From Acidimicrobiales bacterium (GTDB lineage Bacteria > Actinomycetota > Acidimicrobiia > Acidimicrobiales > SZUA-35): a stretch of 64,000 nt of DNA. This document shows positions 9,533-55,399 of the stretch, in pieces. The translations under genes and the position numbers were made by a program. The stretch covers positions 1 to 64,000 of the forward strand of contig JAHDDW010000013.1 of NCBI GenBank assembly GCA_020629155.1, read 5' to 3'. Positions within the stretch are counted from its first letter, which is position 1; each line of letters opens with the position of its first letter. The notes beneath the pieces were generated by a model that saw only the letters and a program-made list of their open reading frames with translations, ran no database searches and was not told the origin of the DNA.

Positions 9533-9805
9533 GACTATAAGAACAAATAAGCCTTTCCACCAACAAGAGGGGTGTTGTACAGTTATCATTTTGTGCCACT
9601 TTTCTTATGTACGGTGTCCTAAACGATCCAGAAAATTGAACTTAGGTGCGGAACTGGATTTGATTCAAAGAAATTACTAGAGTTCTAAACTGGTGCCTGC
9701 CAATCGCAGAAAAATAACACAAAGAAAATTTATTCCGCATGAAACGTAGGCCAAGCAATTTTTTGTGTCTGGGAACTTTTCTTGAAGAGGGTTCGTCTCA
9801 ATGGT

Positions 9806-11992
9806 ATGAGCAAATCACATAGATCTAAAACCAAATCAGCACTTACACTTCTTCTCGCTCTCAGCGTAGGCGCATCAGCGTGTACATCGGGAGACGGCAA
9901 AGAACAAGAGCAAGAGAACCTTAGCTCCGAAGATATACAACTAACTTCTGCGCTTGAAACCTTTGACAGCTGTGAACTGCTGTTAGAAGATATAAAAGCT
10001 GAGGCATTAGAACGAGTAGGCCCGTATGGCTTTGGCGAAGGAGGCGGAGACTACTCGATTATCGAACGATTCAGAAATAGCTTCGGCGGCGACGAAGACT
10101 TTGCTGTTGAAGAGTCTATGGATATGGCAACTGCTGACGCAGAAGCTCCAGCGGCAGCAGCGCCGCAGTCTAAAACAGCTTCTGCTACTGAAGGCTCGTT
10201 CTCGACAACAAATAACCAAGAGGCAGCAGTTGACGAAGCTGACCTTGTGAAGACAGACGGCAAAAGTATTATTCTTCTCCGCAATCAAGAACTTCATATC
10301 ATTGATGCGCAAGATAATGAGCTAGTGACAACAGTCAAACTCCCTAAAAATATTTCGCAAGGTGAACTGTTTTTAACAGATGACACCATTTATGTGATGG
10401 GTCGCAGCTGGGAAGACGTCGACTATGAAGAAAACATCATCATGGAAGATGGCCCTATAGACGGCGATATTGCGGTCGACTGGGCAGGGCCAGCACAAAG
10501 CCCGAGCACCGTTCTTATTGCACTTGATAGAGACACAGGAGATATTCAACAGCAACGCAAAATGTCTGGCAACTACCTATCGGCTAGAGAAGTAGACGGC
10601 ACAATTCGCGTTGTGCTCTCAACTCAGGGCACATCTATAGACTTTGTTTACCCGAACTCAGATAGCGGGAAAGCGAAGAAAGCTGCTGAGACAGCAAACA
10701 GAACTCTTATCGAAGAATCAACGCTTGAGGACTGGGTTCCGTATACAAAAGGCTCAGATGTCGAAGTTGATTGCGGCAATATTCATATGCCGAAAGACTT
10801 TGCAGGCTTTGGCCTTGTTACTGTTGTTACGATAGATGGGAACAAAGGACTCGCGCCTGTTGATTCGCTCGCGGTGTTCACCGACGCGCAAGATGTGTAT
10901 GCTTCAACTGAGCGTCTTGTTGTTGCAACGCCTCGTTGGCAAAAAGATGGCCGCAATAATGACGACTATGAGACTGCATTGCACAGCTTCGACATTAGCG
11001 ACCCAGAAACGATATCGTATAAGGCATCAGGATCGGTCCGAGGCTCGCTTCTAAACAGGTTCTCTCTTTCAGAGCACGAAGGTTATCTGCGTGTGGCGAC
11101 CACTGATGGAAGCCCTTGGGGCCGTGGCAACCAAAGCGAAAGCTATGTGACTGTTCTGGAAGAAGACGACGGCGCGTTGAAGAAAGTTGGCCAAGTTGGC
11201 GACCTCGGCAAAGGCGAAACTATCTTTGCCGTTCGCTTTATGGGCGATGTTGGCTATGTCGTGACGTTCCGTCAGACAGACCCGCTGTATACAGTCGACC
11301 TTAGCGACCCTAGTGACCCAACTGTCCGCGGCGAGCTAAAGATCCCTGGTTTCTCAGAATACCTGCACCCTCTAAGCGAAGATATGCTGCTCGGCGTCGG
11401 CACTGACGGCGATGAGAACGGGGCAAATAACCAAGCCGTTGTGTCACTATTTGATGTGAGCGACCTTGATGACCCGAAACGTATCGACACCTTTGAGCTA
11501 GCTGAAAGCACAAGCGAAGGACGATCGTTTAGCTCCTACAGTCAGGTAGCTAACGATGCACGAGCATTTACTCTCCACGAAGACATTGCCTACGTGCCTG
11601 TTGGGTGGAACAACTATTCGCAGCGCCTAGATCAAGAGCGCAATGGCGAAGAGCTTGTCGCTATCGATGTTTCTGGAGAAACGCTTAAAGAACAAGGACG
11701 TATCTCGCATGCCGAAACAAAAGAATGTGAAGGCTTCGAAGATTACCCTGTTGAACCACAAAATGATGATGCAGAGGAAAGATTCTCAGAAGAAGGTTTC
11801 TTTGAAGAACGTGAAGAGGCACTAGCCACAGAAGCAAAATCCGTGATTGAAGAACGCTTTTGCTACAGCTATCAACCTCAAATCGAACGCTCTATTGTGA
11901 TCGATGACAACATCTACAGCATTTCGCAAGACGGCGTGCAAGTAAACGATGTTGATTCATACGACAAAGTAGAGATGATTTCGTTCAAGTAA
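9806..11992 (+). CDS. Secreted lipoprotein with beta-propeller domain
   Basis: About 728 residues from the ATG at 9806; a TTG at 9782 would add 8. A basic N-terminus, a hydrophobic stretch (ALTLLLALSVGASAC) and a Cys in a lipobox-like context indicate a lipoprotein. The rest resembles the actinobacterial/archaeal 'C-terminal beta-propeller distantly related to WD-40' family. It has an AVDEADLVKTDG motif, repeated blades such as VSLFDVSDLDDPKRI and YTVDLSDPSDPT, and acidic low-complexity linkers. The role is unknown, presumably extracellular binding. A hairpin terminator follows at 12010. Confidence 0.85.
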   Translation: MSKSHRSKTKSALTLLLALSVGASACTSGDGKEQEQENLSSEDIQLTSALETFDSCELLLEDIKAEALERVGPYGFGEGGGDYSIIERFRNSFGGDEDFAVEESMDMATADAEAPAAAAPQSKTASATEGSFSTTNNQEAAVDEADLVKTDGKSIILLRNQELHIIDAQDNELVTTVKLPKNISQGELFLTDDTIYVMGRSWEDVDYEENIIMEDGPIDGDIAVDWAGPAQSPSTVLIALDRDTGDIQQQRKMSGNYLSAREVDGTIRVVLSTQGTSIDFVYPNSDSGKAKKAAETANRTLIEESTLEDWVPYTKGSDVEVDCGNIHMPKDFAGFGLVTVVTIDGNKGLAPVDSLAVFTDAQDVYASTERLVVATPRWQKDGRNNDDYETALHSFDISDPETISYKASGSVRGSLLNRFSLSEHEGYLRVATTDGSPWGRGNQSESYVTVLEEDDGALKKVGQVGDLGKGETIFAVRFMGDVGYVVTFRQTDPLYTVDLSDPSDPTVRGELKIPGFSEYLHPLSEDMLLGVGTDGDENGANNQAVVSLFDVSDLDDPKRIDTFELAESTSEGRSFSSYSQVANDARAFTLHEDIAYVPVGWNNYSQRLDQERNGEELVAIDVSGETLKEQGRISHAETKECEGFEDYPVEPQNDDAEERFSEEGFFEEREEALATEAKSVIEERFCYSYQPQIERSIVIDDNIYSISQDGVQVNDVDSYDKVEMISFK

Positions 11993-12317: not shown

Positions 12318-12500
12318 TGATAGACCCCTTTTCTCGTGCTTCATTTCCTGGTTCTTGATCAAGCTGATTTAGCTCTTTTCTCAATTTCTCGATTTCGAGT
12401 TCTATGGAGCTAGAAATGATTTCCTTTTCACGTTCTTCGAGAAATATACCTTCAGGGTTTGGTCCTCTAGAATCGTCATGCCACCAGTCGTCATTGTATT
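12307..12500 (-). other. Out-of-frame coiled-coil tail of the PspC gene
   Basis: In the frame one base off from the PspC/LiaF-like gene, an open stretch encodes NDDWWHDDSRGPNPEG, an acidic helix and a heptad-like coiled coil (ELEIEKLRKELNQLDQE), ending in TAA at 12307-12309. The in-frame ending at 12402 instead gives a basic, unconvincing tail (VYFSKNVKRKSFLAP). One base appears to be missing near 12493-12499. Restoring it would join the two parts into a protein of about 558 residues. Confidence 0.6.
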
Positions 12501-13985
12501 AGCTGTCAACTCTCTTGTAGTTGTAGGGCTTTGTTCGTCTTCTGACAAACGCCTTTCTAGAGCAGACTGCACTTCGGTAGCCGTTATGATTCCACCCTTT
12601 TCTAGCCTCTCAAGGTCTTCAGATGCTAGGCCTACAAGATAACCCTTACGTTCTTGAGAACCCATTTCTTCTAAATACATTTTGTGGTTTGCGAATGATC
12701 GGTCACCTTCAAGATATCGTTTGCGTTCATCTGACGGTAGTGCTGCTAAGAAAGCTTCCCGTTCTTCTAGCGGAGCGTTATTGTTAAACATCCACGTTTT
12801 GCCATCAAAATAAACATCTTGTACGTTTCGTTCTTCATAATAATTTTTGCCTGCGCTACGCCGTAGCTCATCATCTGCAGATCGGATAAATAAAGCACCC
12901 ACTTCAAGATCGCTATCTAGAAATAACACTGGAGCAGTATCTTTCGCTTCATACCCACCACTTGGGTAGGCAGAACCAAAACCTTCTTCCGAGAAGTGCT
13001 CAAAGTACCCTACTTCTACAGAAGAGTTAAGCTGTACATTGATGTCATCTGGCACAATAATTTCTAATTTGCCTATGTCTAGAGAAACCCCCACGAATGC
13101 ATCTTCTTCGAGAGACACAGAAGATAAGTCAAGTAGATGGCTACCCACATCGAACGAATAAACATCGTCTAGCTCGGCAGCGTTTGCGACAATATGTCGT
13201 GTCGGCTCAATGGAACCGACATAGTGAATTCCTGCTGATACTCCAAGCCCAAGCAGCGCAATGAAACTTAGCAATATCACTGGGATGGAACGACCGACAT
13301 AGGCACTAGCGATAATTACTGCGCCGCAGATGCAAACAAGCAGCCCGAACATAACCATGGCCGAAAGAGAGAACAAACCAATTTGGTCACCTAGAAGAGC
13401 CAGCCCTATGAGCAAAACGCTCGCTGCAATAGTTATCGCAAATAGCGGTGGCGTTGGTTCTTTACGCTTTTTTCGCTGCAAACCTGGTCGCACCCAACTT
13501 CGTCCAGAAGGCTTGTTAGCTACTACGCTGTCGGCGCTACTCAGCTCGTTACGAGAAACAATATTTTCCTCTTTCAATAACTCATCATCTCTGCCAGGAC
13601 GCCTATTCAGCAAGAATAAGCCGCCTCCCAACAACGCTAAGGTTACGAGCACTTCTGAAGAATCAGCTATAGTAAAAATTAGCACTGTGCCTAATCCAAT
13701 TCCTGTAATATAAAGCAGATCTTGGTACTGCCAATTTGTTGGAATCTGGATACCTATTTGTGAACTGGGCGACGGGATAATAAGCCAAGCCATGAGGTAG
13801 GCCACAACGCCAGCGCCGCCTGCAAATGTTGCGATAATAAACCCGAGCTGCACAAAACGAACCTCGATATCGAAATAGTCAGCAAGGCCAGCAGCTACAC
13901 CGCCGATAGTACAGTTTTCAGAGCGCCGCAGCATGCGCTTCGGCGGCTCCTGTGGGATTTGATGGGTTTCAGTAGTTTCTGTCAT
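12402..13985 (-). CDS. PspC-domain / LiaF-like membrane protein
   Basis: 527 residues as read. N-terminal PspC domain (RRSENCTIGGVAAGLADYFD near 20-39, then a membrane pair). Further membrane helices lie at about 85-130 and 175-250. An extracytoplasmic beta-rich 'toastrack'-like region follows, VGVSLDIGKLEIIVPDDINV near 300-330. The charged C-terminal part has repeated short helices (EEREAFLAALPSDERKRYLEG). PspC/LiaF-like proteins sense envelope stress. It is divergent from a PspC-histidine kinase 140 bp away, the usual actinobacterial pairing. The last residues are probably wrong because of a frameshift near 12495. Confidence 0.8.
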   Translation of the reverse strand: MTETTETHQIPQEPPKRMLRRSENCTIGGVAAGLADYFDIEVRFVQLGFIIATFAGGAGVVAYLMAWLIIPSPSSQIGIQIPTNWQYQDLLYITGIGLGTVLIFTIADSSEVLVTLALLGGGLFLLNRRPGRDDELLKEENIVSRNELSSADSVVANKPSGRSWVRPGLQRKKRKEPTPPLFAITIAASVLLIGLALLGDQIGLFSLSAMVMFGLLVCICGAVIIASAYVGRSIPVILLSFIALLGLGVSAGIHYVGSIEPTRHIVANAAELDDVYSFDVGSHLLDLSSVSLEEDAFVGVSLDIGKLEIIVPDDINVQLNSSVEVGYFEHFSEEGFGSAYPSGGYEAKDTAPVLFLDSDLEVGALFIRSADDELRRSAGKNYYEERNVQDVYFDGKTWMFNNNAPLEEREAFLAALPSDERKRYLEGDRSFANHKMYLEEMGSQERKGYLVGLASEDLERLEKGGIITATEVQSALERRLSEDEQSPTTTRELTANTMTTGGMTILEDQTLKVYFSKNVKRKSFLAP

Positions 13986-14125
13986 GTTTCTAGTATGATT
14001 TTATCTTGCGGTCGCCACCATCAGGATTCACACTGATCTTTTACTGTACCCCTGAGAAAGCCTCAGGGTTATCCCTGATTTCAACAAGACTAGAGACATG
14101 TCATACTAGATCAGAGGACTAACTT

Positions 14126-15340
14126 ATGCAGCTTTCACAATCTAATGCAACAGAAAGCGCTGTTATCGGCGAACGCTACTGGCAATGGCCACGTCTTGAT
14201 CATAAAAACCGTGTTATCGGTGGTGTCTCATCGGGAGTAGCAGAAGAGCTCGGGCTTGATCCGCTTCTAGTGCGAATCGGCTTCCTTTTTCTTCTTATCG
14301 CTGGTGGTATAGGTATTGCACTTTATGCTTGTCTTTGGCTTGTTCTTGCGTTCAAAGAATTTCAGCAGCCTGTTGTTAGATACCAGGCTACGGCCAAAGG
14401 TCGCAGCCTGCGGGAGCGGCAACTAGGTTTTGCTTTTCTCATTTTAGGTGTCGCAAGTTTCAGCTTCAATATCTTAGGCACTCGTTGGTTTCCGTTTTGG
14501 GCCAGTGGTTTTATAGCGTTAGGGCTTTTGTCACTCCGTGACGGCTATATGCGTCGCAAAACGCTTCGCCCCAAAACCTTTCCGCAATTTATGCAAGTAG
14601 CCTCTGGTGTGGCACTAAGCCTCGTCGGGTCTGTCTTACTAATAGCTCAGATAAGCCCGACGAAAGATCTTGTCTCGCTTTTCCCCTTCTTGCTTGTTTT
14701 TCTCGGACTTTTTGTGGCAGTAGCACCTTGGGGCTGGCGCTTTCTCGCCGATTTTGATCAGGAACGCCACGCACGCATACAGTCCGATATGCAAGCTGAC
14801 ATTTCTGCGCATCTCCACGATTCAGTGCTACAGACACTGCTACTTATTCAACAAAACCATGCAGACCCTACCGTTGTGCGCAACTTAGCTCGTCGCCAAG
14901 ATAGAGAACTGCGCAACTGGTTGGACGATACCAGATCTTCACGTACAAGCGAAAGTATGAAAGGGTGGCTTGATTCGATGGCCAACGATGTTGAAAATCT
15001 CTATGGGACACCCGTAGAAATCGTGGCTGTCGGCGACTTACTTGTTACCCAACAAACCGAAACTGCACTACAAGCGGCAAAAGAAGCTGCAGTAAATGCA
15101 GCAAAGCACTCTAGGGCACAACAAATAGACGTTTTTGCTGAAGTACATCCGCAGAAACTGGAACTGTTTATAAAAGACCGAGGCAAAGGGTTTGACTATG
15201 CCAAAGCAACACAAGACCGTCAAGGCATCCGTCATTCAATTGTGGGGAGAATCGAACGAATCGGCGGTTCTGCTAACGTTGTGACATCCGAAAAAGGAAC
15301 TGACATAGAAATTGTTGTTCCTCTAGAAAGCACGCAATGA
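14126..15340 (+). CDS. PspC-domain sensor histidine kinase
   Basis: 404 residues. PspC domain at 24-80 (NRVIGGVSSGVAEELGLDP plus a membrane hairpin), further membrane segments to about residue 205, then a HisKA_3-type dimerisation helix with the phosphoacceptor His231 in AHLHDSVLQTL. The HATPase domain has N-box EAAVNAAKHS (Asn324) and G1 box DRGKGFD (Asp351). It autophosphorylates and passes the phosphate to the LuxR-type regulator, whose ATG overlaps its stop by 4 bp. It is likely a sensor of envelope stress together with the divergent PspC/LiaF-like protein. Confidence 0.9.
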   Translation: MQLSQSNATESAVIGERYWQWPRLDHKNRVIGGVSSGVAEELGLDPLLVRIGFLFLLIAGGIGIALYACLWLVLAFKEFQQPVVRYQATAKGRSLRERQLGFAFLILGVASFSFNILGTRWFPFWASGFIALGLLSLRDGYMRRKTLRPKTFPQFMQVASGVALSLVGSVLLIAQISPTKDLVSLFPFLLVFLGLFVAVAPWGWRFLADFDQERHARIQSDMQADISAHLHDSVLQTLLLIQQNHADPTVVRNLARRQDRELRNWLDDTRSSRTSESMKGWLDSMANDVENLYGTPVEIVAVGDLLVTQQTETALQAAKEAAVNAAKHSRAQQIDVFAEVHPQKLELFIKDRGKGFDYAKATQDRQGIRHSIVGRIERIGGSANVVTSEKGTDIEIVVPLESTQ

Positions 15341-15977
15341 CCTATCAGCCACGCATAGTTTTCTCATAGATGACCATCAACTTGTGCGGCAAGGCGTTCG
15401 AGCAACGTTAGGTGATACCGTTCATGTTGTAGGTGAAGCTGCAAGTGTAAGTGAAGCAATTGCAGTGCTCGCAGAAACCAAACCAGATGTCGCGCTTGTT
15501 GATGTGCATCTTCCTGATGGAACGGCATCAGATGTTATTACAAAGACCAAAAACTATCCGACAAAGTTTTTAGCGCTTTCGGTCAGTGACTCGCCCAAAG
15601 ACGTTATTGCCACTATTAGAGCTGGAGCGAGGGGCTACGTAACGAAATCAATCGCAAGTGACGACTTGGTGGACGCACTGCGACGTGTCGCTGAAGGTGA
15701 TGCTGTGTTTTCGCCACGTCTTGCAGGCTTTGTACTTGATGCTTTTGCAGCAAGCTCACCAGCAGAAGAGAAAACCAGCGAATTAGATCTTCTCACTCCT
15801 CGCGAAAGTGAAGTGATGCGTTTACTAGCACGAGGGTACGCCTATAAAGAGATAGCAGCACGATTAACAATTTCAATAAAAACAGTAGAGACCCATGCTT
15901 CTAACGTGTTACGCAAGCTGCAACTTTCTAGTCGTAATGAACTAACCTATTGGGCGGTGCAACGCAAAATCGTGTGA
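15337..15977 (+). CDS. LuxR-family response regulator, frameshifted near start
   Basis: Receiver plus LuxR-type HTH. The start ATG at 15337 overlaps the kinase stop, and its first residues MTYQPRIVF are typical of a receiver. That frame then hits TAG, while the receiver continues one base off with LIDDHQLVRQGV. A run of four T at 15359-15362 would have to be five. As read, only a GTG at 15384 gives an open frame (197 residues), and that lacks the acidic DD pair. The phosphorylation site is in PDVALVDVHLPDG and the HTH is LTPRESEVMRLLARG through SNVLRKLQL. With the missing base the protein would have 213 residues. Cognate partner of the PspC kinase. Confidence 0.85.
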
Positions 15978-16016
15978 CGCCTATTGCCCATGGGCTTTTT
16001 TGCGGTAGAGTGTAGT

Positions 16017-17621
16017 ATGGCTAGCTTACCTGTGCAGTTCAGAAGCTTACGCAAAGATTCCATTTCAGGCTGCCCTCTTATAAAAAGTTTCACTACAACA
16101 ATCGAAGCTGGATCACATGTTTGTTTCATAGGCCCTAAAGTTGAAACCACTGCGCTGCTCGAACTTGTTAGCGGCTTGCAAGATCCTACAAGTGGCTCTA
16201 TCAGAGTAGGGACTTCGCAGGTTGCTGGCACCTCATCAGAGCTTCTTCAAATGCAGCTCGGAGTGCTACAAGAGAACCCATGGCTAACGCAAGATAGTTT
16301 ACTAAAAAATGTTTCACCTGCTGGCTTCACAAGACGTAATCGAACCAAAGTCACGAAAGCGATAGAGCTCGCACAGGTGCAGCGCATCGCACGAAAAATG
16401 CCGCAAGGGTTAGCGACTCCTGTTATTTCTCATGCGCAGCTCTCTCTTCTAGAGCGTAGGCAAATTGCATTAGCAAAAGTGTTGGCGAATGACCCAAAAG
16501 TTTTACTTTTAGAACGCCCTTTAAGCGGCCTCACAAATGATGAAGCGAAAATTTTTAGCTCTGTTTTAGCAGACGCCTCTCAGGGAAGAACAGTTTTAAC
16601 CTTTTCACAAAATTACAAAAACGCGCGACGGGCGCAACAAGTTTTTATAATCGACCAAGGCACTATCTTATGTTCTACCTCGACTGCGAGCGTCTACTCA
16701 CAAGGGACAATACATAAGTTCATGGATGATTGCACCGCTCAACCATCTAGCGCAACAGATACGTGGAATTTCCAACCTGGGGTTGAAACGATAACTGGCT
16801 ATGTAACTTCTCATCTGCATAGTCGTCGCAATGGCATTGAAACATGGGTTGCCTGGAGCACTGCCGAGAAAACCGACGTCAAAATTCGTCTCCCGAAACA
16901 GCAACCAACAAACAAATCAGTTCTGCAACATTTAGAGAACGAGTTTCATGCGCTGCAAAATGTTACAAGCCAGCTACTTCCTCAACCACTTAAAAAATCT
17001 CTGCTGCATGATATTCCTTACACCGTTTTTGAAAGTGTCAAAGGTGAAACGTTAGCTTCGACGCTACGGCAACTACACTGTGGACTTTCGCTGCCTGAAC
17101 TTCTACGTTTAAGTTCTGATATAGCGCGTGCTCTCTTCCAGCTGCATAGCCAAAGTTTTGCCCATCTTGATCTTAACCCACGCTGTATCCGTATCGAAGC
17201 TGGCCAAAATAGGATTTCAAGTGCACGATTTATAACAAAATGTGGGCGCAAGATCGATGATTTAGTCGTTGAATCTGAACCTTTTTTTCAGGCTCCTGAA
17301 CGGATTCCTGGCTCTAAGGCCTTAGCCGCCAGCGATATTTTTTCTTTAGGTCGGCTGCTTTATCGATGTGCGGCTGGCCCTGTTCCTTTCACAAGAAAAA
17401 ATCAGCCACCACAGCATAACCTAACTTTCTTCTTACCACAGGTTCCGCCTTCTTTCGCCGAGCTCGTTGAACAGATGATGGATGTAGACTGGCGTCAACG
17501 ACCAACTATCCAAAATATTATTGCCACTATCAATACACTCAAGCCAAACGAGATACTACTCGAAGACGCCACAATGGTAGATGTGACGCAACCCAAAGTG
17601 CACTCTTCTAGCGACTTCTAG
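16017..17621 (+). CDS. Degenerate ABC ATPase fused to pseudokinase
   Basis: 534 residues from the ATG at 16017; TTG at 15984 or ATG at 15990 would add 9-11, and residue numbers here use the longest form. Residues 22-235 follow an ABC exporter-type ATPase, but every catalytic motif is altered. Walker A is IGPKVETTA, the signature is AQLSLLERRQ instead of LSGGQRQ, Walker B is VLLLERPLSGL instead of LLLLDEPTSAL, and the H-loop His is Gln209. Residues 265-520 follow a Ser/Thr kinase: lysine in TDVKIRL, hinge FESVKGETL, HLDLNPRCI for HRDLKPxNI, no DFG, APER kept, SDIFSLGRLLY kept. Both halves look non-catalytic. It sits directly after the PspC kinase/regulator pair and may be a scaffold or ligand sensor there. 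No function is established. Confidence 0.75.
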   Translation: MASLPVQFRSLRKDSISGCPLIKSFTTTIEAGSHVCFIGPKVETTALLELVSGLQDPTSGSIRVGTSQVAGTSSELLQMQLGVLQENPWLTQDSLLKNVSPAGFTRRNRTKVTKAIELAQVQRIARKMPQGLATPVISHAQLSLLERRQIALAKVLANDPKVLLLERPLSGLTNDEAKIFSSVLADASQGRTVLTFSQNYKNARRAQQVFIIDQGTILCSTSTASVYSQGTIHKFMDDCTAQPSSATDTWNFQPGVETITGYVTSHLHSRRNGIETWVAWSTAEKTDVKIRLPKQQPTNKSVLQHLENEFHALQNVTSQLLPQPLKKSLLHDIPYTVFESVKGETLASTLRQLHCGLSLPELLRLSSDIARALFQLHSQSFAHLDLNPRCIRIEAGQNRISSARFITKCGRKIDDLVVESEPFFQAPERIPGSKALAASDIFSLGRLLYRCAAGPVPFTRKNQPPQHNLTFFLPQVPPSFAELVEQMMDVDWRQRPTIQNIIATINTLKPNEILLEDATMVDVTQPKVHSSSDF

Positions 17622-20279: not shown

Positions 20280-21278
20280 TTAACTTCTTCCTTGTTGTTG
20301 TCTAGTAGTGCTAGCAGCTTCGTTAGTTGGATAAAGTTGCGTAGCGAAACTACTTAAGCCATCTGCCACATTTTTTCTGATGGGAATTGGCAACAAGCTA
20401 AATACGCTATTCTTAATTTCAACTATGTTTTGTGCTTTCTGAGCTGTTTTCTTTTCATACATCGCAAGATCTGCTCTCTTTGTTGCTGAGAGCAGACGAT
20501 TAGTTCCTGAAGGGTCAACTTCGGCGACTCCTACCGCAGCCGCAGGGATTTGCTTAAACCTTTCTGCTATATCATCAACTGCTGTTTGGTCTAGTCCATG
20601 CTTAGGATCACGAAGTTTCGCTATGAACTCTTTAATCTCAACTTTTACAAAATCGTTAAGCTCGTTATGGAAAGATTCGTTTTCCGCCTTAGGATCTGCA
20701 AGTATGACAACAAATTCGTCTCCGCCAACACGTGCCACTGCATCTGTACCTTTAGAAGCAGCATATTTTTTGAGTGCTGATCCCATAGTTTTTATCAACC
20801 AATCTCCAGCCTCATGGCCAAGCAGATCATTGACAGGTTTTAAATTATTGACATCTAGGAAAGCAAGATGCGTAGACCGGTTTTTAAGTTCAATATCACC
20901 AGATTTAACTTTTTCGAACCACGCACGATTATTAGTACCAGTTGATGGGTCAGTATGCGCATCATTCTCCATTCGTGGAGACTTAAAAGCCTGAACTCCT
21001 AACAAAAACAGCTCGCTATATACAGTTTCTGGACCGCTAGGTCCTCTTGTTCTTGCGCCTTTGTGCCCGCTAGTTTTTTCGGTTCCGTCAGGATCACGAC
21101 TAACCCTAGGCCCCGCATTTCGTGGCCATGAGTTTCCACGTTTAGCCCAGTCGCCAGGAGATGGAGAATAATATCCTTCGCCAGGATAGAACTGGTTAGG
21201 ATATCCTTCGCCAGGTTTAGACTCGTCCTTAGAAGGAACATGACGGAGTTCTATTTCTGGAGTTTCAGGATCGGCCAT
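20280..21278 (-). CDS. GGDEF-domain protein (probable diguanylate cyclase)
   Basis: 332 residues. The first 85 or so are polar, Pro/Gly-rich and contain two PGEGY units; no membrane segment or sensor is seen. A GGDEF domain follows from about 105 to 270, starting DPSTGTNNRAWFEK and carrying the intact active-site motif RVGGDEFVVIL, so it probably makes cyclic di-GMP. A second gene with this domain lies at 40531. The C-terminal 50 residues are of unknown role. Confidence 0.88.
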   Translation of the reverse strand: MADPETPEIELRHVPSKDESKPGEGYPNQFYPGEGYYSPSPGDWAKRGNSWPRNAGPRVSRDPDGTEKTSGHKGARTRGPSGPETVYSELFLLGVQAFKSPRMENDAHTDPSTGTNNRAWFEKVKSGDIELKNRSTHLAFLDVNNLKPVNDLLGHEAGDWLIKTMGSALKKYAASKGTDAVARVGGDEFVVILADPKAENESFHNELNDFVKVEIKEFIAKLRDPKHGLDQTAVDDIAERFKQIPAAAVGVAEVDPSGTNRLLSATKRADLAMYEKKTAQKAQNIVEIKNSVFSLLPIPIRKNVADGLSSFATQLYPTNEAASTTRQQQGRS

Positions 21279-21346: not shown

Positions 21347-22186
21347 TTAAGAATTTAGCCATTCTTGAATATCGCTAGCTATGCGAGTGGGGTTTTGCAG
21401 TGGCCCGAAGTGGTTGAGATCGTTGTATTCTTTTAGAGTTACGTTTTTTTGCTGTTCGGCGATTTCTACCACATTTGGCACACGATCGCCGTCGTCAGGG
21501 CCGATAGCAAAAAGCATTGGGGCTTCAACCGAACCAATTGTTTCGGTAATGCCGCTGTTTGCTTCTCGGTAAATCTGTGCCTCGTGCTCTGGTTTGCAGC
21601 TAAGCGCTATCGAGCCATCGGCTTGATCTTCAAAGCCCCATTCCAGATATTGCTTGCTACACGCTGGGTCGAAGAAAACAAGCGGAAATTTGTTGGCATA
21701 ACGCTCGAACGCTGCCTCACGAGATGCAAATTCAGTCTTGCGACGTAACGCTCCCTCAACCAACGGTTGTGTTCTCGGGTGGTTGGCTATTGGCTCAGAC
21801 GAAAGAAGAATCGGTTCAAACGCCCAGATCTTCTCGAACAGGCCAGGCTCAAACGTTTCAGCAAGCACCAGAGCGCTACCGCCAAGTGAGTGGCCGATGC
21901 CGATTACGGGCTGGTCGCTAGAACCTTTGCAATGAGCAATCGCTGGTAATAGATCTTTAGCGATTGACTGCCAGCTCATATCGTCACCGTCATAAGTGCT
22001 GCGTCCATGGCCTCGCAGATCTACCCCAACGCAGCGATAGTTTGCACTGAGCACATCGGCTATCGGCTGCCACATCTTGGCGCAAAAACTTGTTGCGTGT
22101 GCAAAGAAAAGCGTCGGACCGCTTGCACCGCCAAGGTCATGCAACGCTAATTCAACATCGCCTGCATCAATTTTTGTGAAACTCAT
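21347..22186 (-). CDS. Alpha/beta hydrolase
   Basis: 279 residues with a full alpha/beta-hydrolase fold. The oxyanion region is FFAHATSFCAKMWQP near 25-40, the nucleophile Ser is in IGIGHSLGGSALV near 99, an acid is in GPDDGDRVP near 230, and the His is in NDLNHFGPL near 260. The substrate is unknown. Its ATG overlaps the stop of the upstream S9 peptidase by 4 bp, so the two are co-translated. Confidence 0.88.
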   Translation of the reverse strand: MSFTKIDAGDVELALHDLGGASGPTLFFAHATSFCAKMWQPIADVLSANYRCVGVDLRGHGRSTYDGDDMSWQSIAKDLLPAIAHCKGSSDQPVIGIGHSLGGSALVLAETFEPGLFEKIWAFEPILLSSEPIANHPRTQPLVEGALRRKTEFASREAAFERYANKFPLVFFDPACSKQYLEWGFEDQADGSIALSCKPEHEAQIYREANSGITETIGSVEAPMLFAIGPDDGDRVPNVVEIAEQQKNVTLKEYNDLNHFGPLQNPTRIASDIQEWLNS

Positions 22187-24153
22187 TGCTCGCCTCGTAT
22201 CTCTACTGGTTCTATTTCATCGTGTGGAGTAAACCCTAAAATCTTACCGTAAAACCAAAGCTCGGCTTCTAGCGAACGGATAATATTTTCCGATTTTCTG
22301 AAACCATGCTGTTCGCCTTCAAACAAAATGTAGCTGTGCGGCACGCCACGGTCGGCTAACGCATCGGTAATCATTTCTGTCTGCGCTGGCGGTACCACTT
22401 TGTCTTCACTGCCTTGCAACGCAAGCAGCGGCGTTGTGAAACCATCAAGCATAGTTAACGGTGAACGCTGTTCGTAAAGGTCTTTGCGTTCTGGATATGG
22501 CCCCACCAAAGAATCAAGATATCGGGCTTCAAACTTGTGAGTATCTTCAGCTAAAGCAGTTAGATCAGCAACGCCATAAAGGCTCGTACCAGCGGCAAAA
22601 ACCTCTGACGTTGCTAATGCAGCAAGTACCGTGAATCCGCCAGCAGAACCGCCGCGAATCACAATGCGGCTCGGGTCTACTTTGCCTTGCGAAGCCAAAA
22701 ACTGTGCAGCAGCAATACAGTCTTGCACGTCACATATCCCCCAGTTTCCTTGCAACTTGTTTCGATATTTTGTGCCAAAACCGCTAGAACCTCGATAATT
22801 CACATCGACAACGCTGAAACCGCGAGACGTCCAATATTGCACTTTAAGTTTCAAGCTCATCGTAGTGTGACTCGTCGGCCCGCCATGGCCTAACACAACA
22901 AGCGGTGGTTTCTCGCCGTTAAGACCTTGATGAGGCCCTGTTGCCGGGTAATAAAAAGCGTACGCTGTTTCTTCTGCTGCTGATTCTTGCGCCATTGATG
23001 GAACGCTAAATCTAATCGACTCAGCTTGGCTCACCCATCTTGGGTCAAGACGAAGTGGCGGTTCAGTTATTTTTATAGACTCTTGAGTTGAAAGGTCCAG
23101 CGTAATGCAATGCTCGCCTTCTGTCGGGGTTGCGCCTTGGACCAACAACTGGCCATCGCTCGTAGCAGCTATAGCACTTATTGCACAAAATGGTGTTGCA
23201 AGCTCACGCAGCGATTCACCGCCACTAGTGAATGTCACTACTCTATCGATAGCGTTTTCAGTTATAACCGCTGCAAGGTGACCTTCTGTATATTCCACCC
23301 AACGTTGCGTACCAAAAACCCAACCGCACGCTCCAATCTCGGCCGCATCAAGCGCTGTCAGTGCCTTACTGGTTCGAGTAGCCACATCATAGATATAAAG
23401 ATTCCACCAGCTAGTTGTATCATCGCTATAGACCAACGAACCATCTTGCAGCCAATCAGCGCCGCAAATAGACGAGCCGCTAGCGACAGCTACATGTTCA
23501 CCTAGCGTTCCATCGTCAGCTACAGCTGCGACATAGAGCTGCGTTTCGTCCCAAGCCATATTCGGATGACTCCACTGAATCCAGCTCAGACACGCGCCAT
23601 CAGGCGAAAAACGTGGCGTGCTCACAAAATCAGGACCCGAAATAAGCGTTGCGACTTCGCCTGCCTGAGAGATCTGCACAAGCTCATTTTTTGGTTCGCT
23701 GTCTGCGCTGTGATCTTCTCTCACGCAAACCTGCCAACCGTCAGGGTGTACTGTGCCATCAGCAAAACGCCAATCATGATTTTCAGATGTCAGCGGAACA
23801 GCAATAGCGTTACTCAGACTATAGACCCTGCGATCTGTATCGTTAGAGAAAAATATTGTTCCCTTAGTATCGTTCCACCACGCACCGCCGCCGTATTCAT
23901 GTACCCGCGTTCGTGCAGAAAAGGGCGCATTCAGCACATCAGAGACAGTTTTTGTCTTCAGATCGTAAGCGACCAACGCCACTCGCCCAGCTTCATGCGG
24001 ACGAGCTTCGCTCCAATAAAGATGGTCACCAATTTGTTTAGGACCAGACCTTCGCACAGAGCCTTTTGATACTATTTCAGCAGAAATAGGAGACGGCCAT
24101 GCCCCATAGGCCACAGGTAGTAAAGATGGCGGTTCTTGTTGTGTCTGATTCAT
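22183..24153 (-). CDS. S9-family peptidase (acylaminoacyl-peptidase-like)
   Basis: 656 residues. The N-terminal two thirds form a beta-propeller, as in prolyl oligopeptidase relatives. The C-terminal catalytic domain has HGGPTSHTTMS near 430, Ser in RGGSAGGFTVLAALA near 505, Asp in LQGSEDKVVPP near 585 and His in GEQHGFRKSEN near 620. No signal peptide was seen, so it acts in the cytoplasm on short peptides. It forms a two-gene unit with the following hydrolase. Confidence 0.92.
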   Translation of the reverse strand: MNQTQQEPPSLLPVAYGAWPSPISAEIVSKGSVRRSGPKQIGDHLYWSEARPHEAGRVALVAYDLKTKTVSDVLNAPFSARTRVHEYGGGAWWNDTKGTIFFSNDTDRRVYSLSNAIAVPLTSENHDWRFADGTVHPDGWQVCVREDHSADSEPKNELVQISQAGEVATLISGPDFVSTPRFSPDGACLSWIQWSHPNMAWDETQLYVAAVADDGTLGEHVAVASGSSICGADWLQDGSLVYSDDTTSWWNLYIYDVATRTSKALTALDAAEIGACGWVFGTQRWVEYTEGHLAAVITENAIDRVVTFTSGGESLRELATPFCAISAIAATSDGQLLVQGATPTEGEHCITLDLSTQESIKITEPPLRLDPRWVSQAESIRFSVPSMAQESAAEETAYAFYYPATGPHQGLNGEKPPLVVLGHGGPTSHTTMSLKLKVQYWTSRGFSVVDVNYRGSSGFGTKYRNKLQGNWGICDVQDCIAAAQFLASQGKVDPSRIVIRGGSAGGFTVLAALATSEVFAAGTSLYGVADLTALAEDTHKFEARYLDSLVGPYPERKDLYEQRSPLTMLDGFTTPLLALQGSEDKVVPPAQTEMITDALADRGVPHSYILFEGEQHGFRKSENIIRSLEAELWFYGKILGFTPHDEIEPVEIRGEQ

Positions 24154-24217: not shown

Positions 24218-25261
24218 CTATGGTAAGAATAGTGTACCCCAAGTGCTTCGACCGACAACGCCGTCAGCCTCTAGGCCTGGCACGCCAGATTGAAACCCAA
24301 GAGTAGCTGCTTGCGTCGCTTTGTCAAATATGCCGTCAGGCTCCAAACCAAACCGCTCCTGCCATATCCCTACAAATGCCTTATAAAGCGCGCTACCACT
24401 TTTACCTCGATAAAGGTTTTGTGGAAGCCATCGCGAAGTTTTTACTTCCCATTCCGCTTCAGGATCTTGCAATGCTTCTTGCAGTTCGATACTCGCAACA
24501 CCAGTTAGCTCTGTTCTTTGCGCAAGCTGGAAACCTCGCACAGCAGCTTCAGTTATTGGGCCAAAGGCTCCATCAACCTTAAGACCGAAACCGCTCTGCA
24601 AAAATCCAACAGCCGAACCAGAATCGCCTCGTCGCAGCGCCCGAGGTTCGACTTGCTCTGCTGTATCCTCATCTATGATTACAGGAGCGCCACCAGCTTT
24701 CTGAGCATTGAAATATGAAGTTACTTTCTTTGCAAATATGTCCCACGGAAATGTCGGGCCAGGGTCTGTATGGGTTGTTCCTCCATACACAATGCGGCTT
24801 AGATTATGAGAAATAATACCATTTTGACCGTCCCGCAGCTGCGTTGCTGTTAGAAGCTCTGGCGTAATGTTATTGCGAATACAAATATCTGCGGTAAGTT
24901 CAGCCGTCTTATCAAGTGTCTGCTTATAGTTAGTTATATCCCACTCACCTGGGACATAGACAGCCATTTCGATAGCAATCGAATGTGTGTCAACAAAGCT
25001 TGAACCAGTATGGCGGCCAGCATATATTTCATCCAAGCTTGACGCAACAGAGTTTTTATCTGTTGAATAATGCCACGAAACCCGACGGCCTCCAGCACCA
25101 TCACGCAAATAGCGTGCCAACGCCTCAGCGCCAGTAGCGCTACCGCCGCAACAAACCGCTGAATGAATCACCACATATTTCAAAGGGTTCGGTTTACGGA
25201 CCCCTCGGTGGTTGCGTGTTGGTCCTGAAACTTTAAAATCCGCTAAAGAAGAAATCGCCAT
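24218..25261 (-). CDS. Amidase_2-type amidase with two PG-binding domains
   Basis: 347 residues. N-terminal N-acetylmuramoyl-L-alanine amidase domain: Zn ligand His in YVVIHSAVCC near 33, Glu in SIAIEMAVYVPGEW near 95, and HTDPGPTFPW near 156. Two peptidoglycan-binding_1 repeats follow: LRRGDSGSAVGFLQSGFGLK near 205 and YRGKSGSALYKAFVG near 280, each ending in a DG..G motif. There is no signal peptide or membrane segment. That is typical of phage endolysins but unusual for a housekeeping amidase. No phage genes are near. Confidence 0.85.
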   Translation of the reverse strand: MAISSLADFKVSGPTRNHRGVRKPNPLKYVVIHSAVCCGGSATGAEALARYLRDGAGGRRVSWHYSTDKNSVASSLDEIYAGRHTGSSFVDTHSIAIEMAVYVPGEWDITNYKQTLDKTAELTADICIRNNITPELLTATQLRDGQNGIISHNLSRIVYGGTTHTDPGPTFPWDIFAKKVTSYFNAQKAGGAPVIIDEDTAEQVEPRALRRGDSGSAVGFLQSGFGLKVDGAFGPITEAAVRGFQLAQRTELTGVASIELQEALQDPEAEWEVKTSRWLPQNLYRGKSGSALYKAFVGIWQERFGLEPDGIFDKATQAATLGFQSGVPGLEADGVVGRSTWGTLFLP

Positions 25262-53455: not shown

Positions 53456-53614
53456 GCTATCAAATCAAAGTTATCCCGATCCTCTACAATCGACTTAGTT
53501 TCGCCGAATGCGCAACCAAGTTATTGAGGTTCGCAATATCAAGATTTTTTCAGATCCAGAAGCAAACTAACCTCACAGGTGTGTTCTGACTTCGACCCCC
53601 TACACTGCTGTTAC

Positions 53615-55399
53615 ATGGACACTGATGTCGCTCAATCTGATTATAGTTTTGCTGCTTTGCGGACTTTAACATGGCAAAATAAAGGCTTGTTCAGCCTTTG
53701 TGTGCTCACACGGAGCCTGGCGCAGCTTTGTATTGCTTTACTCCCCTATTTTTTAGCGAAACTTGTTGAAGAACCGTCCAGCGCTGCTGATGAAGAACAA
53801 ACTTTTGCCTTCATACTTCTGATATTGCTATGTTCAGCTCTTTTCCTTGTATTTTGGTTTACCGCTGATTTTCTCCACGGCTACAAAGTTATACCCGTTA
53901 TTAATAATTTTAAACAAATGGCTTACACCACGATGTGGGGCAAAGAATACGAGACGTTTATACAAAAACCTTCAAGCAAGATAGCAAGCTATGTCAACCA
54001 GCTTCGCAAGCGAACATACGAACTTTGGTGGCTCTTTCTCTGGCAAATTGTTCCGCTTGCGTTAACACTCCCGACCTATCTGATTATTCTTTTTACCACC
54101 GCAAGACACAACACTCTTTTGTATTTGGTGTTCATTGCTTTGACTGTGATGATTTCTTCGTTGATGGTTAAACCAATGGCTGCTGCGCAACGACAGTTGA
54201 CCGATGCTGAGTCTTCTCAAGATGGCAAGGTGTACGATTCATTTGCTAACTTTGTAAACGTTTTTTCGTTTCGAGCACATCGTAAAGAAATCGGGCAGCA
54301 TGCCAGCGAAATAGATGCCCTTACCAGTGTTGAAGTTAAAGCTATGCGAAAGAAAATTAACTATTGGCTGGTTGCTTCGTCGCTGCTTCGGATGGGGCTC
54401 TGGACCATAATTTTGTTCTACAGCTGGCATCTTTACACATCAAACCAAATCCCTTTCCAAGCTTTTGTTGTTTCGACAACAGTTCTCATAGGGTTCACTG
54501 CCCAATATTTTATACTCATGCAAAGCGTCGCAGAAGCAAACACACAAACTTCTGCTTTTCGTGAAGCATACAACTATCTTTTCCCTGGCGAGAATATTGT
54601 CAGGAACTACAACCAAGTGGCGAAAGAAGTACACCAACCATCGGATAGCAGAACATTTAGCGAGGCAGTGACCTTACAAAATGTAAGCTTCGCTTATCCC
54701 GATGACAGAAAGCAAGGCGTACTACACAACCTTGACCTTACAATCAACAAAAATGAAAAAATTGGCATTGTCGGCAGAAGCGGCTCGGGAAAGTCAACTC
54801 TTATTAAAATCCTTTTAGGGTTTTATGAACCGACAGAAGGTGCGCTTCTTGTTGACGACGAGGCTATCACAAGTGAACAACTTGCCCGGCTCTATGCGTA
54901 TGTTCCGCAAGATACAACGTTATTCCAGGCCTCGTTTTTCTACAACATTGCTTACGCACAACAGGGCAACGTTACTGCGCAACAAGTTGAGGCCGCCGCG
55001 ACTAAAGCCCATATACACGATTTTATTATGAGCACGCCGCAAGGCTATGAGACTGCTGTCGGCGAGCGAGGTATCACGCTTAGCCTCGGGCAACGACAAC
55101 GAATCGCCATAGCCAGAGCTCTGCTTCGCCGCACAGACCTGCTTATTCTCGACGAAGCGACATCAGCGTTAGATTCAGAAACCGAACGACTTGTTCAAGC
55201 ATCTTTCGAAGATTTATGGGCTAATCAAACAGTTGTTGCCATCGCCCATAGGCTCTCGACACTCAACAATGTTGACCGAATCATCGTGTTAGACAATGGC
55301 AGAATCGTTGAACAAGGAACAAAAGAATATTTACTTTCGCTGAATGGCCATTTTGCTGATTTATGGAATCATCAACGCGAAGGCATGCTTGCGGCCTAA
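53615..55399 (+). CDS. ABC exporter, fused permease and ATPase
   Basis: About 594 residues from the ATG at 53615; a GTG at 53579 would add 12. Six membrane helices to about 330, then an ATPase with Walker A GRSGSGKSTL, signature SLGQRQRIAIARALL, Walker B LLILDEATSALD and the H-loop in AIAHRLSTL. Heterodimeric or homodimeric type IV exporter for lipids or drugs. Substrate unknown. It is read next to, and on the same strand as, the flippase gene, with a broken small gene between. Confidence 0.9.
   Translation: MDTDVAQSDYSFAALRTLTWQNKGLFSLCVLTRSLAQLCIALLPYFLAKLVEEPSSAADEEQTFAFILLILLCSALFLVFWFTADFLHGYKVIPVINNFKQMAYTTMWGKEYETFIQKPSSKIASYVNQLRKRTYELWWLFLWQIVPLALTLPTYLIILFTTARHNTLLYLVFIALTVMISSLMVKPMAAAQRQLTDAESSQDGKVYDSFANFVNVFSFRAHRKEIGQHASEIDALTSVEVKAMRKKINYWLVASSLLRMGLWTIILFYSWHLYTSNQIPFQAFVVSTTVLIGFTAQYFILMQSVAEANTQTSAFREAYNYLFPGENIVRNYNQVAKEVHQPSDSRTFSEAVTLQNVSFAYPDDRKQGVLHNLDLTINKNEKIGIVGRSGSGKSTLIKILLGFYEPTEGALLVDDEAITSEQLARLYAYVPQDTTLFQASFFYNIAYAQQGNVTAQQVEAAATKAHIHDFIMSTPQGYETAVGERGITLSLGQRQRIAIARALLRRTDLLILDEATSALDSETERLVQASFEDLWANQTVVAIAHRLSTLNNVDRIIVLDNGRIVEQGTKEYLLSLNGHFADLWNHQREGMLAA

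Follow-up and report, generated by a model that had tools for sequence, protein, structure and literature searches.

The window, by which we mean the whole 64,000-nucleotide stretch of DNA analysed here, carries on its forward strand a gene for a single protein that runs from an ABC-type ATPase domain into a Hanks-type kinase domain (Table 1). Immediately upstream lie the genes of a PspC two-component system and a divergent PspC/LiaF-like gene, with a beta-propeller gene beyond them, and an alpha/beta hydrolase gene and a prolyl-oligopeptidase-like gene follow downstream on the opposite strand. The start codon of the fusion gene is uncertain (TTG 15984, ATG 15990 or ATG 16017). We estimate that an open frame of 545 codons would arise by chance at the local base composition with a probability of ~1e-13, and the G+C content of the three codon positions (0.55/0.43/0.39) is similar to that of the adjoining genes.

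Table 1. Positions of the fusion gene, its domains and motifs, and neighbouring genes in the window.
Feature	Position	Strand	Remarks
Beta-propeller gene (PF09826)	9782..11992	+	upstream syntenic neighbour in relatives
PspC/LiaF-like gene	12402-13985	-	adjacent in window only
PspC histidine kinase gene	14126-15340	+	adjacent in window only
LuxR-type regulator gene	15384-15977	+	adjacent in window only
Terminator-like hairpin plus T6, between response regulator gene and fusion gene	15979..15995	+	pattern match only; 11 in region vs 6.7 +/- 3.3 expected
Fused pseudo-ABC-ATPase/pseudokinase gene	15984..17621	+	545 aa; orthologs in 13 other genomes
ABC exporter-type nucleotide-binding domain fold, residues 14-250	16023..16733	+	Pfam, AF2 model, Foldseek, VIA-align Z 26.9
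Degenerate Walker A, residues 50-58 (GPKVETTAL), Lys lost	16131..16157	+	alignment with exporter controls
Degenerate ABC signature, residues 153-158 (LSLLER for LSGGQ)	16440..16457	+	
Degenerate Walker B, residues 173-178 (VLLLER; D to E, E to R)	16500..16517	+	
H-loop position, Gln209 replacing His	16608..16610	+	
Hanks-type kinase fold, residues 260-520	16761..17543	+	Pfam, AF2 model, VIA-align Z 27.1 to PknB
beta3 lysine position, Arg302 (Lys in most relatives)	16887..16889	+	
alphaC glutamate Glu320, invariant in alignment A1	16941..16943	+	
Catalytic loop, residues 394-401 (HLDLNPRC): Asp396 kept, Lys to Asn398, Asn to Cys401	17163..17186	+	
DFG position, residues 413-415 (SAR; Ser413 for the Asp)	17220..17228	+	
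APE motif retained, residues 437-439	17292..17300	+	
SDIFSLG (alphaF) motif retained, residues 450-456	17331..17351	+	
Alpha/beta hydrolase gene	21347-22186	-	downstream syntenic neighbour in relatives
Prolyl-oligopeptidase-like gene	22183-24153	-	downstream syntenic neighbour in relatives

Both domains are recognised by Pfam above the curated cut-offs, ABC_tran at residues 36-179 (E 9e-10) and Pkinase at residues 305-514 (E 6e-16). Because an alignment of mixed domain rows on the full protein placed kinase rows on the ABC half, the halves were modelled apart, so that the AlphaFold2 models cover each half separately, without mutual domain placement. The ABC half was modelled with a pLDDT of 90.1 and superimposes on HlyB (1mt0) with Z 26.9 and an rmsd of 3.2 over 236 aligned residues, while the kinase half (pLDDT 84.2) superimposes on PknB (5u94) with Z 27.1 and an rmsd of 2.8 over 246. 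The window protein thus has the nucleotide-binding domain fold of ABC exporter ATPases and the bilobal fold of Hanks-type kinases. An earlier note on this DNA had read an ABC-type fold followed by a kinase fold in one protein and had called for structure prediction of each half; Pfam, AlphaFold2 and structure comparison confirm that order, and both halves match the folds expected of them. No transmembrane segment was evident on inspection of the sequence, and since the C-terminal tail contains no hydrophobic segment, the protein is predicted to be cytosolic.

Catalytic motifs in the two halves

To compare the ABC-site residues, we aligned the ABC domains of 14 fusion members with 28 from exporters of the same group. 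The Walker A lysine occurs in 0/14 fusion domains versus 28/28 exporter controls, and the Walker B and D-loop aspartates are retained in 1/14 and 2/14 fusion domains, respectively. The Walker B glutamate is found in 79% of the fusion domains and the H-loop histidine in 50%. All four motifs that define an active ABC site (the Walker A lysine, the Walker B aspartate and glutamate, LSGGQ and the H-loop histidine) are gone from the window protein, just as the earlier note had claimed, while its description of the Q-loop as intact was only partly right: Gln96 is out of register by one residue, and Glu97 occupies the Q slot. There is no membrane domain in the fusion gene and none conserved beside it; the ABC exporter encoded elsewhere in the window (53579-55399) is far from the fusion gene.

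In the kinase half of the window protein, Arg302, Cys401 and Ser413 stand where a Hanks-type kinase has the beta3 lysine, catalytic-loop asparagine and DFG aspartate, respectively. The claimed loss of the HRD lysine and asparagine and of DFG was therefore borne out (HLDLNPRC, SAR), and the alignment likewise agrees that APE and SDIFSLG are retained. To that list of motifs we add that the HRD aspartate is present (D396), that the beta3 lysine is replaced by arginine and that the alphaC glutamate is kept. The lysine and asparagine of the catalytic loop are gone from the kinase half of every fusion member, and no Gly-rich loop is recognisable in the fusion kinase halves. Most relatives' kinase halves nevertheless retain the beta3 lysine, alphaC glutamate and DFG aspartate, and the HRD aspartate is retained in L025, L027 and the window protein. 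Homologues accordingly share only part of the window protein's losses: the Walker A lysine and the catalytic-loop lysine and asparagine are lost throughout, whereas the beta3 lysine and the DFG aspartate are kept in most members, and the Walker B glutamate and the H-loop histidine in part. Since ABC residues are partly kept and most kinase halves keep the beta3 lysine, glutamate and DFG aspartate, the loss is graded, with the window copy and the copy in the same-genus genome G001 being the most degenerate members.

Distribution and conserved locus

A search for the fused architecture in other genomes, which had been proposed along with the first description, placed the fusion in 14 of the 39 genomes examined from the window's bacterial family (class Acidimicrobiia). 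The 14 comprise the window genome, G001, 11/12 genomes of genus g10 (two split over contigs) and 1/2 of genus g3; several genera of the family are without the gene. No comparable full-length match was found outside the family in ~400 genomes of the order and ~400 of the class. The very divergent G001 ortholog escaped these full-length searches, so that further strongly diverged members may have escaped them as well. That ortholog (L194:4918-6432, 504 aa) was found through synteny, and Pfam gives it a sub-threshold kinase match only. A broad contig scan with the family alignment was dominated by ordinary ABC exporters and kinases; among its 80 loci the sole true member was L062 (Acidimicrobiia bacterium, JAOUGG010000440.1), a fusion fragment near-identical to the G036 member, which assigns the group to Acidimicrobiia.

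The usual gene order in relatives is beta-propeller, fusion, alpha/beta-hydrolase, prolyl oligopeptidase. A prolyl-oligopeptidase-like gene lies downstream of the fusion in 10/10 loci, an alpha/beta hydrolase gene lies near it on the downstream side in 7/10, and a beta-propeller gene lies upstream in 6/10. The window protein has the features by which we delimit the family, namely an ABC fold followed by a kinase fold, loss of the Walker A lysine and a location between the propeller and the hydrolase and oligopeptidase genes. In G009, the gene that separates the propeller gene from the hydrolase gene was considered as a fusion ortholog and rejected, as it encodes an unrelated protein of 408 aa with no family match.

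Other genes were also observed around these loci. A divergent gene for a NamZ exo-muramidase adjoins the fusion in five relatives (L025, L026, L028, L029 and L030; Pfam), which hints at a cell-wall context for the fusion. A GGDEF protein is encoded near the fusion in the window (20280-21278), and a GGDEF-EAL protein directly after the fusion in L028 (L028:10214-12973). Near the syntenic oligopeptidase gene, the window also encodes an Amidase_2 protein with peptidoglycan-binding domains (24218-25261).

Origin, selection and possible function

An unfused counterpart of the fusion is found in G075, a genome of another family of the same order. Its locus L153 encodes the two domains in separate neighbouring genes, ABC and kinase, which lie on one strand with ~105 bp between them. 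Walker B (LLLLDEPTTGLD) and the H-loop (VTH) are intact in the ABC gene, and the kinase has the catalytic loop HLDLKPTN and DLG. Since the ABC gene is cut at the contig end, 117 aa are visible, and the P-loop and any membrane domain are unseen. The kinase tree unites the 12 fusion kinases on a single branch (100/99); the G075 kinase is the next to join, before other soluble HLD-motif kinases. A tree of ABC domains that includes 34 exporter domains places the G075 fragment together with those of the fusions (98/97); the fragment contributes 85 residues to this tree, and the grouping is thus support rather than proof. The G075 pair resembles the fusion in supplying the nearest relative of each half, in its ABC-then-kinase order and in the start of its kinase, W...G.E...ETWxAW, but differs in consisting of two separate genes with Walker B, H-loop and catalytic loop HLDLKPTN intact. 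A second G075 contig, C83, where an exporter pair runs into the contig end, was rejected as the missing upstream ABC part, since the ends do not overlap and its ABC domain groups apart from the fusions. More widely in the order, small soluble kinases carry HLD[LV]Kxx(N) rather than HRDxKxxN, together with the conserved N-terminus W...G.E...ETWxAW (L154:3908-4873, L174:2391-3323, L175:3796-4728 and L153:6024-7025).

The intact motifs of the unfused G075 pair, and the position of each of its genes beside the matching half of the fusion in separate trees, suggest a fusion of two active genes. The simplest account is that neighbouring genes for an exporter-type ABC ATPase and an HLD-motif Hanks-type kinase, both active, fused in an ancestor of one Acidimicrobiia family, and that catalysis was lost after the gene fusion.

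We calculated dN/dS by the Nei-Gojobori count on close pairs of relatives. The L022/L023 pair gave 0.065 (ABC 0.079, kinase 0.049), a rough value because synonymous change between the two is high, L027/L062 gave 0.078 for the kinase half, and L030/G062 gave 0.24 (ABC 0.37, kinase 0.15). Both halves are therefore under purifying selection in relatives despite the motif losses (dN/dS about 0.05-0.37). For the window copy itself, the evidence for function consists of the open frame and the codon-position composition only.

Since selection keeps the joined protein across a group of Acidimicrobiia even though both active sites are degenerate, it is probably a non-catalytic adaptor. In its full form, this reading holds that the fusion is a soluble, cytosolic dual pseudoenzyme, in which exporter-type ABC and HLD-type kinase neighbours were fused, lost catalysis and now serve as a protein-binding adaptor; we put its chance of being correct at about even. 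The protein would work without ATP hydrolysis or phosphotransfer. Through its ABC half it would bind a partner protein, for which a subunit of an exporter or a second ABC domain is the likeliest candidate; the role of its kinase half would be that of a scaffold, or of a decoy that pairs with a Ser/Thr kinase as its dimer partner. With the ABC half on an exporter and the kinase half engaged with a Ser/Thr kinase, kinase signalling would be coupled to the exporter. Beside the fusion, neither exporter genes nor genes for active kinases are conserved. The more specific proposal, that these once separate and active neighbours form a dual-pseudoenzyme family of ATP-independent regulators through which Ser/Thr kinase signalling reaches an exporter or the cell envelope, is tentative, and we hold it with slightly less than even confidence.

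Some pseudokinases, such as SelO and SidJ, carry out other chemistry. Because the kinase halves of several relatives retain ATP-binding residues, those members are only tentatively called non-catalytic, and since most relatives keep the beta3 lysine, alphaC glutamate and DFG aspartate, nucleotide binding in the kinase pocket may act as a switch. The kinase half could then be a nucleotide-binding switch, or have another ATP-dependent activity, with the ABC half as its scaffold. The HRD aspartate of L025, L027 and the window protein would fit such a role, as would the ATP binding, AMPylation or glutamylation performed by other bacterial pseudokinases (PMC12599244). Against it stand the absence of the catalytic-loop lysine and asparagine from all fusion members and the unrecognisable Gly-rich loop, and we regard this reading as improbable. 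In the window copy, where beta3 lysine has become arginine and DFG has become SAR, nucleotide binding in the kinase pocket is unlikely.

Divergence of the window and G001 copies is strong enough that constraint on them may have been relaxed. A rival reading is that in the window's genus the gene is a decaying relic, a once functional adaptor that is drifting towards loss in these two genomes. The window copy has very long branches (1.9 in the kinase tree and 3.3 in the ABC tree, where G001 reaches 5.6), it is without the DFG and beta3 lysine that most relatives retain, and the gene is missing from several genera of the family. However, frames of 545 and 504 codons have stayed open at the same locus in two very divergent species of one genus, the codon-position composition of the window copy resembles that of the adjoining genes, and its structural motifs APE and SDIFSLG are retained. 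We consider decay in this genus an unlikely explanation, comparable in weight to a nucleotide-dependent role.

The earlier note had further proposed a partnership with PspC, in which the fusion protein would be a signalling adaptor of the adjacent two-component system. The fusion gene is co-directional with the regulator gene, in frame with it and 6 to 39 bp past it, depending on the start chosen, and PspC systems function in envelope stress (PMC11237479). The window has at 12402-15977 the same layout as the actinobacterial PspC/Lia-like system, with a PspC histidine kinase, a REC-HTH protein and a divergent PspC gene (PMC11237479); unlike the components of that system, the fusion gene lies outside it in every other genome examined. 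The ten syntenic relatives have no homologue of the PspC kinase or regulator near the fusion, so the shared neighbours anticipated for homologues did not appear. The PspC kinase occurs in 34/39 family genomes, but away from the fusion outside the window (86 kb apart in G032, for example), and in G001 there is no match to it, the fusion ortholog there lying between the propeller and hydrolase genes. A neighbourhood with the PspC kinase and regulator is thus not conserved around the fusion gene, and their adjacency in the window appears to result from a rearrangement at this site. Given in addition the terminator-like hairpin at the junction of the regulator and fusion genes, a PspC adaptor role is highly improbable.

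In other genera, an ABC ATPase gene does follow the PspC system (L197, L198, L199 and L203), with ABC_tran intact in the two tested (Pfam), and at least three of these loci have a further permease of ~945 aa, FtsX-type in the one tested. We rejected this ATPase as the source of the fusion, as it is part of a permease pair and the fusion model matches it along the ABC half only: the model scores 74-84 bits on the ABC ATPases that follow PspC systems versus 425 bits along the G001 ortholog, G001 being included in the model.

If the preferred reading is correct and the protein is an adaptor whose ABC half still docks on exporters, the fusion would represent a new way of controlling exporters. The unfused, intact sister pair and the graded loss among fusion members offer a natural series in which to study how a pair of ATP-driven machines turns into a non-catalytic regulator.

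Comparison with known systems

To our knowledge, no known family joins a pseudokinase to a degenerate ABC domain with both of them dead. The earlier statement that no family of such architecture had been described held up: Pfam, NCBIfam and PADLOC contain no model spanning the ABC-kinase fusion, and literature searches of open papers did not find the architecture. A 2025 review of bacterial pseudokinases (PMC12599244) covers seven families, none with an ABC domain, and the term "ABC" never occurs in it. The PADLOC matches were generic kinase matches and give no evidence of a defence role.

The ABC half shares its fold and domain size with the ATPase domains of type IV ABC exporters (CydD, HlyB, MsbA and ABCB types), and its closest NCBIfam match is CydD (4.6e-26). 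Unlike type IV exporters, the fusion has no membrane domain and has lost the Walker A lysine, the Walker B and D-loop aspartates and usually the Q-loop glutamine. Degenerate exporter ABC domains otherwise occur paired with active ones inside a transporter (PMC7756269).

The kinase half resembles the ActPs1-3, GLW, CP1, DYD and DLHK pseudokinases in combining a Hanks-type fold with lost catalytic motifs (PMC12599244). Judged against the published descriptions, it is set apart from these families by its motif HLxLR, the lack of a C-terminal transmembrane helix and its fusion to an ABC domain. ActPs2 proteins, for instance, are defined by an HRD aspartate changed to asparagine and a C-terminal transmembrane helix (PMC12599244), whereas the window protein has Asp396 and a C-terminus with no hydrophobic segment. 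Pseudokinases and degenerate ABC domains are each already known (PMC12599244; PMC7756269); in CP1 pseudokinases the fusion partner is another predicted ATPase, COG3899, and scaffold roles are known for the pseudokinases MviN and EssB (PMC12599244).
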